From positions 5,208,001 through 5,272,000 of the forward strand of contig NZ_CP058561.1 in NCBI RefSeq assembly GCF_018141425.1: 64,000 nucleotides of DNA, read 5' to 3'. The DNA is from Vallitalea guaymasensis. Its GTDB lineage: Bacteria; Bacillota; Clostridia; Lachnospirales; Vallitaleaceae. The notes beneath the pieces are model-generated. The model searched no databases. It worked only from the letters and a program-made list of their open reading frames with translations, and was not told the DNA's origin. Positions 60,471 to 62,883 of this stretch are shown here, piece by piece. The position numbers and the translations under genes were made by a program. The first letter of the stretch is position 1. Every line of letters begins with the position of its first letter.

Positions 60471-60580
60471 GCGAAAATAGTATAGGGGAATATTTCGTCA
60501 GCCAGTTAAACGTCCGTGTTTAATAGGCTGAGTTCACCGTCCATGGCTCACTGCTACATATTCCCCTATACTATTTTTGC
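60471..60580. repeat. Structured 110-nt inverted-repeat element
   Basis: GCGAAAATAGTATAGGGGAA... (60471-60493) pairs over 23 bp with its complement at 60558-60580, with only one G-U pair. The 64-base loop is GC-richer than its surroundings and contains a nested hairpin: TCAGCC (60498-60503) with GGCTGA (60526-60531), then TTAAAC (60506-60511) with GTTTAA (60518-60523). Two similar heptamers CGTCCGTG and CGTCCATG also occur in the loop. No long T-run follows the stem. It could be a structured RNA, a miniature mobile element or a large bidirectional terminator. Confidence 0.7.
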
Positions 60581-60676
60581 TCTTTAGTCAATTATTATTG
60601 TATGTGAGTTATTATGGCTTATGTTTAGATATCAATTAACTATGGTGTTTAATAATGGATTGATAATAGTAATGTA

Positions 60677-60714
60677 AAATATACGAACTCGGCAAAGATA
60701 AATATACGAACTCG
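60677..60714 (+). repeat. Two direct repeats upstream of the recombinase
   Basis: AAATATACGAACTCG occurs at 60677-60691 and 60700-60714, two identical 15-mers in the same orientation with 23-bp period. The motif is CG-containing and distinctive in AT-rich DNA. It may bind a protein twice on one DNA face. Nothing else in the window repeats it. Confidence 0.65.
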
Positions 60715-60724
60715 ATTAATGTAT

Positions 60725-60771
60725 AGCATATTTATATTATAAGAATAAGTCTTAAGTGTAGTAAATATGCT
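60725..60771. repeat. Inverted repeat with TGTTTTTA tail
   Basis: AGCATATTTA (60725-60734) and TAAATATGCT (60762-60771) form a perfect 10-bp stem with a 27-base loop followed by GTTTTTAG, so a weak terminator is possible. A second imperfect dyad (about 60781-60836, AGTTTTAT...ATAAAACT) follows directly. Confidence 0.5.
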
Positions 60772-60876
60772 GTTTTTAGAAGTTTTATAGCAGTTCTTAT
60801 ATTATTTACTATATGAACAGTGCCATAAAACTACGAAAAATAGAAATGGATATGGTAATACCCCTTGGAAGATATG

Positions 60877-60908
60877 TGGTTGACCATAAATATATTATGT
60901 AAACAATG
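60877..60908 (+). repeat. dif-like 32-bp repeat, copy S1
   Basis: TGGTTGACCATAA...TTATGTAAACAATG. Inverted arms GTTGACCATAA and TTATGTAAAC surround ATATA. ATATATTATGTAAAC in its right half matches 15 bases of the Bacillus subtilis dif site. It lies 32 bp before the recombinase start codon, in the same orientation as copies S2 and S3. Confidence 0.7.
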
Positions 60909-60940
60909 TTGCGATTTATATAGATGAAGGAGAAAAAATC

Positions 60941-61984
60941 ATGAATTTAGAACCCAATATTATTGATATGACAATGATAATAGAAAAATATTTAAACCAT
61001 CTAAAAATAAATAGATTGTCTAATGCAACTATAAAGAATTATAAGGTTACTCTTAACCAATTTATGAATTTCATAATAGAGAGTAGAGGTACACAATATA
61101 TTGAAGAAGATAATGTCAAAAATATTATTGATAGTTTTTTAGAAGAATTGGATAGGGATGAGTATAATTATAAAACAAGAAGTATTAATGCCAAAAGAAA
61201 TACATTAACTGGTTTATTCAAATTTGCTAATGAGGAAGAATTGATACATATCAGTGTGACTCATAAGTTGAAGTCACTTAAGGTAGATGCAACTAGAGAG
61301 AAACCCGTACTTAGTAAAGATGAAATCAATAAGATATTAAAATATCTAGAGAATGAAGTTAGTATTGAGACTAGGAAAGAGTATGACATTCTAGAAGACA
61401 AATATAATAATATATATTATAAGATAAGGAATAGATTTTTGTTCAATCTGTTTTTATATACTGGTCTAAGGATTTCTGAAACTGCGAAAGTCATGTGGGA
61501 TGATATTAATCTTGAAAGTAAACTATTGACTGTTACAGGTAAAGGAAATAAAACAAGGTGGATTCCTTTAAACAGTAAATTAATGTTTGAGTATTTTAAG
61601 TACAAAACAGCCATAGAACGCTTGGAAAAAGCAGTAATCAGAGAAAATGTTAAGTTGAATAGATTAATTTATAAAAGTGTATATCTGTTTCCATCGTTAT
61701 ATAAAATTGATGATGATATGCCTATGTCCACTAGAAGGATTACCATAATTATAAAAGATCTATTGGATAAAGCAGAGATTAATACAAAAAGGAACGATAG
61801 TAAAAAGATAACACCTCATAGTTTCAGACACACTTTTGCGACTTATCTATTAGATAGTGGTGTACCAGTAAGAATTGTAAGTGATATTCTAGGTCACAGC
61901 CGAACAAGTACTACTTTTGATAATTATATCCAAATTATCAATAAAAACAGAATGTTTGATGAGATAGAAAAATTAGAATATTAA
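60941..61984 (+). CDS. Tyrosine recombinase (XerC/D-like), bracketed by dif-like repeats
   Basis: A site-specific recombinase of 347 residues. The N-terminal SAM-like core-binding domain (about 10-110, FKKY-type: EKYLNHLKINRLSNATIKNYKVTLNQFMNF) is followed by the catalytic domain with Arg177 (GLRISE), Lys201 (TGKGNKTR), His293/Arg296 (PHSFRHT), His319 (LGHSRTSTT) and Tyr329 (DNYIQI), so all six residues are present. AAGGAG lies 9 bp before the ATG. Chromosomal XerC/XerD are about 295-300 residues; this is longer, mainly in an insert near 145-160 and 215-245. No relaxase, excisionase or cargo gene is adjacent. Confidence 0.92.
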   Translation: MNLEPNIIDMTMIIEKYLNHLKINRLSNATIKNYKVTLNQFMNFIIESRGTQYIEEDNVKNIIDSFLEELDRDEYNYKTRSINAKRNTLTGLFKFANEEELIHISVTHKLKSLKVDATREKPVLSKDEINKILKYLENEVSIETRKEYDILEDKYNNIYYKIRNRFLFNLFLYTGLRISETAKVMWDDINLESKLLTVTGKGNKTRWIPLNSKLMFEYFKYKTAIERLEKAVIRENVKLNRLIYKSVYLFPSLYKIDDDMPMSTRRITIIIKDLLDKAEINTKRNDSKKITPHSFRHTFATYLLDSGVPVRIVSDILGHSRTSTTFDNYIQIINKNRMFDEIEKLEY

Positions 61985-62020
61985 AATATGTTTTAATGTG
62001 ATAATAATAGTTTTAATTAC

Positions 62021-62052
62021 TGGTTAACCATAAATACATTATGTTAACTATG
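62021..62052 (+). repeat. dif-like 32-bp repeat, copy S2
   Basis: TGGTTAACCATAA...TTATGTTAACTATG, 28 of 32 bases identical to S1. The inverted arms are nearly perfect (GTTAACCATAA/TTATGTTAAC) around ATACA. It begins 37 bp after the recombinase stop codon. The distance from S1 is 1144 bp. Confidence 0.7.
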
Positions 62053-62057
62053 ATGAG

Positions 62058-62110
62058 CGTTTCATAGTTTGTTCAGTAATTATTATTAGTTGATAATAAT
62101 TATAGAAACG
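62058..62110. repeat. Hairpin between dif-like copies S2 and S3
   Basis: TAATTATTAT (62077-62086) and ATAATAATTA (62093-62102) form a perfect 10-bp stem; the outer arms CGTTTC (62058-62063) and GAAACG (62105-62110) pair too. It fills the space between S2 and S3. Confidence 0.5.
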
Positions 62111-62122
62111 AAATACAGTTGT

Positions 62123-62154
62123 AAGTTGACCATAAACTAATTATGTAAACTATG
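62123..62154 (+). repeat. dif-like 32-bp repeat, copy S3
   Basis: AAGTTGACCATAA...TTATGTAAACTATG, 26 of 32 bases identical to S1. Its right arm TTATGTAAACT equals that of B. subtilis dif. The centre (ACTAA) differs from S1 and S2. It lies 55 bp upstream of the Crp/Fnr start codon. Confidence 0.65.
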
Positions 62155-62208: not shown

Positions 62209-62883
62209 ATGGAAAATATTATAACGCAATTAGCTGGCTGTGAGTTATTTAATGGATTTACCCTACAGGAGATAGAAGATTTATTACAAGATATCAATTA
62301 TAATATTAAAGAATATGGTAAAGATGAAATTATTGCTTTAGAAGGTGAAGAAGCTAAAGATGTAGGGATTGTTTTGTCTGGTACTTTAACAATCAATAAG
62401 TTATATCAAGACGGAAAACAAATGAATGTAAAACAAATGTTATCGGGTAATCTTCTTGGATTTGCACTGGTTTTTTCTGATTCAACATGTTATCCAAGTA
62501 CCCTTATTGCTGGCGTGGATACTACAATAATCTTTATATCTCATCAAGATATTATTGCCTTATGTTATGCTAATAAATTATTACTTAGTAATTTTCTGAA
62601 GATAATTTCCAATCAATTAGTTTTTCTTAGTGATAAGATAAAAATGATTAACTACAGTACTATAAGAAAAAAGGTTGTTAATTATTTGTTAAGAGAATAT
62701 GATAATCAAAAAAGTCTATTAATTAGAGTATCTATTTCTAGGAAAGAAATGGCAGAGACACTAGGGGTAACTAGACCTGCTTTATCCAATGAAATGATTA
62801 ATATGAAAAAAGATGGCTTGATAAAATATGATAACAATATAATAGAAATACTTGATCTTAATAGATTAAAAGATGAAATATAG
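62209..62883 (+). CDS. Crp/Fnr-family transcriptional regulator
   Basis: A 224-residue regulator. The cyclic-nucleotide-binding-like domain (about 10-120) contains YNIKEYGKDEIIALEGEEAKDVGIVLSGTLTINKLYQDGKQM, and the C-terminal winged helix has ISRKEMAETLGVTRPALSNEMINMKKDGLIKYDNN. The cluster-ligating cysteines of Fnr are not evident, so the signal is unknown. GGGAGGT precedes the ATG at 62209. Its position before the permease pair suggests it controls them. Confidence 0.9.
   Translation: MENIITQLAGCELFNGFTLQEIEDLLQDINYNIKEYGKDEIIALEGEEAKDVGIVLSGTLTINKLYQDGKQMNVKQMLSGNLLGFALVFSDSTCYPSTLIAGVDTTIIFISHQDIIALCYANKLLLSNFLKIISNQLVFLSDKIKMINYSTIRKKVVNYLLREYDNQKSLLIRVSISRKEMAETLGVTRPALSNEMINMKKDGLIKYDNNIIEILDLNRLKDEI

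Follow-up and report, generated by a model that had tools for sequence, protein, structure and literature searches.

Dif-class candidate sites in two or three copies around a third Xer-type recombinase gene of Vallitalea

Introduction

One dif site per chromosome is the expectation, and copies in direct orientation should lead to deletion of the DNA between them. How, then, is one to read a locus of Vallitalea guaymasensis in which three dif-like sites lie in one orientation around a tyrosine recombinase gene? The locus is part of the window, by which we mean the whole 64,000-nucleotide stretch analyzed (positions 5,208,001 to 5,272,000 of NZ_CP058561.1, assembly GCF_018141425.1). The genome under study, G000, is a single contig of 5.63 Mb, and coordinates are those of the window unless stated otherwise. 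On balance we favor the reading that the sites, S1 to S3, are dif-class Xer sites that form a duplicated dimer resolution locus of Vallitalea and enclose a third, probably domesticated Xer recombinase. The arrangement is probably new and the system a known one, and a self-excising mobile cassette is probably not what the locus represents. The case for a dif role is entirely comparative, built on the structure, conservation and location of the sites and on the presence of the enzymes.

Structure and location of the sites

The core of the locus and its downstream neighbor comprise the following features.

60877..60908, + strand: S1, dif-like site (28-mer 60878-60905, GGTTGACCATAAATATATTATGTAAACA)
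60941..61984, + strand: tyrosine recombinase of 347 aa (PF00589 and PF02899 above cut-off)
62021..62052, + strand: S2, dif-like site (28-mer 62022-62049, GGTTAACCATAAATACATTATGTTAACT)
62123..62154, + strand: S3, dif-like site (28-mer 62124-62151, AGTTGACCATAAACTAATTATGTAAACT)
62209..62883, + strand: Crp/Fnr-family regulator gene after S3 (PF13545, PF00027), followed by ArsP-type permease genes; a neighbor outside the core

The recombinase ORF begins 32 bp after the S1 32-mer, two sites follow it, and S1 and S2 are 1144 bp apart. The preliminary description of this DNA had given the same layout of co-oriented 32-bp sites at 60877, 62021 and 62123, and pattern searches of the window and the genome bear it out. 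S1, S2 and S3 all match GTTRACCATAA-N5-TTATGTWAAC perfectly, with 26-nt cores that start at 60879, 62023 and 62125, each on the + strand. At up to three mismatches they are the sole matches in the window, versus 0.07 expected in shuffled sequence, and elsewhere in the 5.63-Mb genome no place has fewer than three mismatches to the pattern. Chance or an assembly artefact, for which AT-richness and nothing more speaks, can practically be dismissed given this expectation, and conservation in six species already refutes it.

The sites have the build of the dif class, that is, about 28 bp with two imperfectly inverted arms around 5-6 bp and a conserved right arm. The S3 right arm, TTATGTAAACT, is identical to that of Bacillus subtilis dif, printed as ACTTCCTAGAATATATATTATGTAAACT (PMC3025954), and 15 bases, ATATATTATGTAAAC, are common to the right side of S1 and the same B. 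subtilis site (PMC3025954); both resemblances had been claimed from the sequence and hold against the published site. Likewise, the centers of S1 (ATATA) and S2 (ATACA) are similar and that of S3 (ACTAA) is different, as first described.

A comparison with the terminal GC-skew switch had been proposed, and it places the locus nearby. GC skew and coding strand, both sampled, change sign at 5.27-5.40 Mb in G000 and at 3.30-3.44 Mb in a second species, G004. On a finer skew profile the switch of G000 falls at 5.337 Mb, next to lexA and an xerC-like gene and about 68 kb (of 5.6 Mb) from the locus; the distance in G004 is about 66 kb. In the other four Vallitalea species the terminus is placed by linkage to xerC-like/lexA, which lie on the same contig as the locus and 31-65 kb away. 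The sites are thus near the GC-skew peak, as dif should be, at 30-68 kb from the switch or marker genes, whereas the sites of most relatives are closer and hug xerC-like/lexA. Additionally, rluD and xerC-like/lexA are close together in most of the family and mark a terminus block.

The classical enzymes are also encoded. XerD of the same genome scores above the TIGR02225 cut-off, and the lexA-linked XerC-like protein, found in 54 of 59 relatives, is intact, yet below the XerC and XerS cut-offs. It had been suggested that a separate xerC/xerD pair with its own dif would speak against the locus; an xerC-like/xerD pair is indeed present, but pattern searches turned up no dif apart from the locus, and no such site was detected beside xerC-like/lexA or beside xerD in Vallitalea. 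Because of the lack of a site beside xerC-like/lexA, S1 to S3 appear to be the only convincing dif candidates of the Vallitalea chromosome. One further candidate, at genome position 5,285,330 (also in G003-G005), was rejected because it lies in the leader of the pyr operon. It gives a PyrR match of 50.1 bits, slightly short of the Rfam gathering score, and folds into an RNA hairpin (CATAGTT/AACTATG); in G002 one nucleotide is deleted, which would upset the spacing for Xer. This hairpin (L097:5293-5392, outside the window) mimics dif and could mislead pattern-based dif searches.

Conservation of the locus within Vallitalea

The Vallitalea sample consists of six genomes, one per species, and the recombinase is present in all of them at 69-95% identity, in one syntenic place in the terminus region. 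A search at E 1e-35 did not find it in 289 further genomes of the order. The upstream order aroB, lspA, rluD is kept and the downstream neighbors vary. The recombinase is vertically inherited and, with dN/dS values of about 0.05-0.08 where estimable, under strong purifying selection.

The preliminary description missed that the sites recur in all six species and that a second conserved array lies upstream of S1. S1 is found at a fixed position in 6/6 species, its 28-mer ending 35-36 bp ahead of the start codon; after the gene come one or two sites at varying distance, so that every species has two or three copies rather than one. The recombinase of G002 is followed first by a GGDEF gene and then by the downstream site, which overlaps the GGDEF stop. 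A third site occurs in G000 and G004, ahead of the same crp-type gene, which is downstream in these two species only.

The arms are kept while the center changes (ATACA/ATATA in G005 and TATTA/AATAT in G003). In every species the co-located sites have different centers, a single base apart in G000 and G005, and identical centers were never seen within any locus having at least two sites. When S1 and S2 (60877-60908, 62021-62052) are compared with the G005 locus (L017), a left-arm base and the center are swapped between positions, perhaps through gene conversion, perhaps through homoplasy.

These findings bear on the proposal that the locus is a self-excising cassette, which they do not support: the gene is vertical in 6/6 species and under strong purifying selection, and co-located centers are never identical. 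The predicted form without the cassette and with one site left did not turn up among the six, each represented by one genome. A related possibility is a remnant or still-mobile dif-integrated element (IMEX-like), in which attL/attR-like sites would surround the recombinase and the extra genes would be cargo. Direct-repeat dif-like sites do bracket a recombinase here, the GGDEF gene of G002 and the third site before the crp-arsP module in G000 and G004 would fit cargo, and G049, from another family, offers an independent case with the gene reversed. In general layout the locus resembles CTXphi, GGI, LME-1 and the dif modules of Acinetobacter, in which DNA also lies between differing dif-like copies. 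In LME-1 of Legionella, mismatched flanking dif copies stabilize the insert, a measured precedent in which the changes are in the arms (PMC9765430). However, the bracketed gene of Vallitalea is a genus-wide conserved recombinase that is vertically inherited with conserved upstream synteny and under purifying selection. Furthermore, other element genes and empty-site genomes are lacking among the six species, and no phage or plasmid relative of the recombinase exceeds about 32% identity. We therefore regard an IMEX-like origin as distinctly unlikely and retain the reading of a duplicated dif locus.

Dif-like sites in related genera

The terminus regions of relatives were scanned with a weight matrix built from the Vallitalea sites. 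Relatives without an orthologue of the recombinase have look-alike sites at the terminus, with scores of 22-32.5 versus at most 16.3 in the reversed sequence of those regions.

G010: look-alike 70 bp from the xerC-like gene
G006: look-alike between aroB and lspA, within the same gene block
G024: two look-alikes immediately before xerC-like, 103 bp from each other
G008 and G009: look-alikes at the terminus
Genus g8, three species: look-alike in a symmetric version

Since the same class of site occurs in relatives without the gene, S1 to S3 are not private to the recombinase. The earlier claim of an Xer/dif architecture is thus upheld by the canonical right arm, the terminus location, the conservation and these look-alikes. 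The comparison also yields candidate dif sites for several other genera of the order, for which we found no published dif work in the literature searched.

With its pair (L137:1501-1629), G024 offers another instance of dif-like sites in tandem next to a recombinase gene, there the lexA-type xerC-like gene. In genus g8 the site is a near-perfect palindrome near xerC-like in three species (G016:C33:94784, G019:C1:130739 and G012:C208:3861; L336, L337, L354). Terminus sites of G013 and G017 with two mismatches were rejected, as they look like coding sequence. S-like sites also occur in four viral contigs.

An autoregulated operator set had been among the first proposals. Under this reading the sites, S1 above all, would be bound by the recombinase or another Xer protein, and no recombination would occur. 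The idea is possible for S1, which has a weak promoter-like match on one side and the ribosome-binding site on the other, and the centers are free to vary between sites and species while the arms are kept, as if only binding mattered. It does not extend well to the whole set: the genome has no further good matches and no regulon is suggested, the two-armed dif architecture is kept far from the gene's promoter (as in the G002 site at the GGDEF stop), and the look-alikes of relatives lie at the terminus beside a different recombinase gene. We hold an operator set to be highly doubtful.

The resident recombinase

The catalytic residues R177, K201, H293, R296, H319 and Y329 are all invariant among the homologues aligned. 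The protein is far below the NCBIfam cut-offs for XerC, XerD, XerS and XerA (for XerS, NF003462, it scores 77 bits against a cut-off of 267), its XerH match is weak, and it does not qualify as a member of the XerS or XerH family. Instead, it falls in its own clade (support 0.895) with single-copy proteins of families f2 and f8 that are about 30% identical. It is a third lineage of Xer type, next to XerD and the lexA-linked XerC-like protein, and probably a domesticated integrase. A structure model (mean pLDDT 78) has an Xer-type fold with XerA, XerH and XerD among its matches, at low TM-scores and probably with poor domain packing; such a model is not informative on specificity.

Several relatives of the recombinase are also near the terminus, namely in G046 (60 kb from the switch), G068 (about 70-95 kb) and G049 (13 kb from xerC-like). 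That the whole subfamily is strictly at the terminus was rejected, as G127 does not conform. Flanking dif-like sites were not found at the homologues in family f2 or in G028. In G049 two dif-like sites flank the homologue, whose orientation is opposite to theirs. At this locus (L352:14932-16054) the recombinase is 30% identical and 13 kb from xerC-like, and the sister species G028 has the gene without sites. Since only G049 among the distant homologues also has two flanking sites, the gene and the sites can occur separately and have been joined at least twice. The relatives in family f2 (L228-L244) often have a transporter gene on the upstream side and a short conserved gene with a YRCIYTEK-like motif on the downstream side.

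Could the resident recombinase work the sites alone, as a self-contained module like xerS/difSL of streptococci and lactococci or xerH/difH of Helicobacter and Campylobacter, one that has replaced the xerC-like gene? A site immediately upstream of the gene, the hallmark named for such modules (PMC5357621), is present in 6/6 species. The 347-aa protein is close to XerS and XerH in length (about 350 aa), the terminus location is shared, the left arm is longer by one base, like one arm of difSL, and no site is left beside xerC-like/lexA in Vallitalea. The pair of sites around the G049 homologue adds to this. A genome with such a module would be expected to lack a XerC/XerD pair, though, whereas Vallitalea has intact XerD and XerC-like proteins; its sites lie on both sides of the gene, its recombinase is far below the XerS cut-off, and its arms have the classical dif sequence. 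In addition, the sites occur in genera without the gene, and the recombinase occurs without sites in family f2 and G028. The proposal of a single-recombinase locus thus stands as to the adjoining site and falters on the coexisting enzymes, and overall we consider it unlikely. An operator or a private XerS-like module would account equally well for the constant placement of S1 ahead of the gene.

Proposed function of the duplicated locus

The duplicated dif locus that we favor shares with the dif/XerCD system (CodV/RipX) of B. subtilis and E. coli the 28-bp two-armed site with right arm TTATGTAAACT, the terminus location, and XerD with a XerC-like protein. Unlike that system, it has two or three non-identical sites that enclose a third recombinase gene, and it lies 30-68 kb away from the skew switch or marker genes. 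We hypothesize binding of Xer monomers to the two arms, followed by strand exchange across the center. Exchange between like sites of the two dimer halves (S1 with S1, S2 with S2) would resolve the dimer, and deletion between S1 and S2 would be held down by the center mismatch. In G000, however, these centers differ by one base, which may be too little to prevent exchange completely. Two further points speak against this reading: the distance from the skew switch or marker genes is larger than in most relatives, and the homologues of family f2 and G028 lack such sites. As to the resident recombinase, it most likely binds S1 to S3 as well, as a partner or back-up, and S1 together with the upstream array may regulate its expression or synapsis. 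Copies that have persisted around the gene throughout the genus, always with different centers, would be a natural test of how center homology controls Xer recombination, and the locus would also show a dimer resolution site that has exchanged one recombinase neighbor for another.

A repeat array upstream of the recombinase gene

The array lies within about 260 bp before the gene and is conserved upstream of it only in Vallitalea.

60678..60712, + strand: DR1-DR2, AATATACGAACT twice in direct orientation with starts 23 bp apart; 6/6 species
60725..60771, + strand: inverted repeat AGCATATTTA ... TAAATATGCT with 10-bp arms (hairpin); 4/6 species
60792..60820, no strand assigned: IR, AGTTCTTATA-TTATTTAC-TATATGAACAG, inverted copies of the DR-like TATAyGAAC; 6/6 species

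In DR1-DR2, 24 of 24 specified bases are identical in all six species at the same locus, and the perfect pair occurs once per genome. The IR overlaps a weak promoter-like match (60775-60803) that is no better than those in shuffles. A DR pair in G197 was judged unrelated, as it sits at a hicAB-like promoter, and viral contigs contained none. Because the array occurs only with this gene, the resident recombinase is the simplest candidate for its binder.

The layout recalls that of the TnpI internal resolution site of Tn4430 and Tn5401, in which a short motif stands twice in direct and twice in inverted orientation ahead of the gene for a tyrosine recombinase. Vallitalea differs in lacking a transposase, in an IR spacing that is 2 bp longer in G004, and in the additional dif-like S1, and the likeness is one of the motif array alone. 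A bolder version of the dif reading, which we put forward as possible but tentative, is that dif moved from the lexA-linked xerC-like gene to the resident recombinase, which would work two or three center-divergent copies with a private accessory array (DR1-DR2 and IR). This would make a composite three-recombinase locus whose copies are kept apart by center mismatch.

Between a pentapeptide-repeat gene and the array there is, at 60475-60583, a long inverted repeat (AAAATAGTATAGGGGAATAT ... ATATTCCCCTATACTATTTT) that is absent from G005 and may be a small mobile repeat or a terminator.
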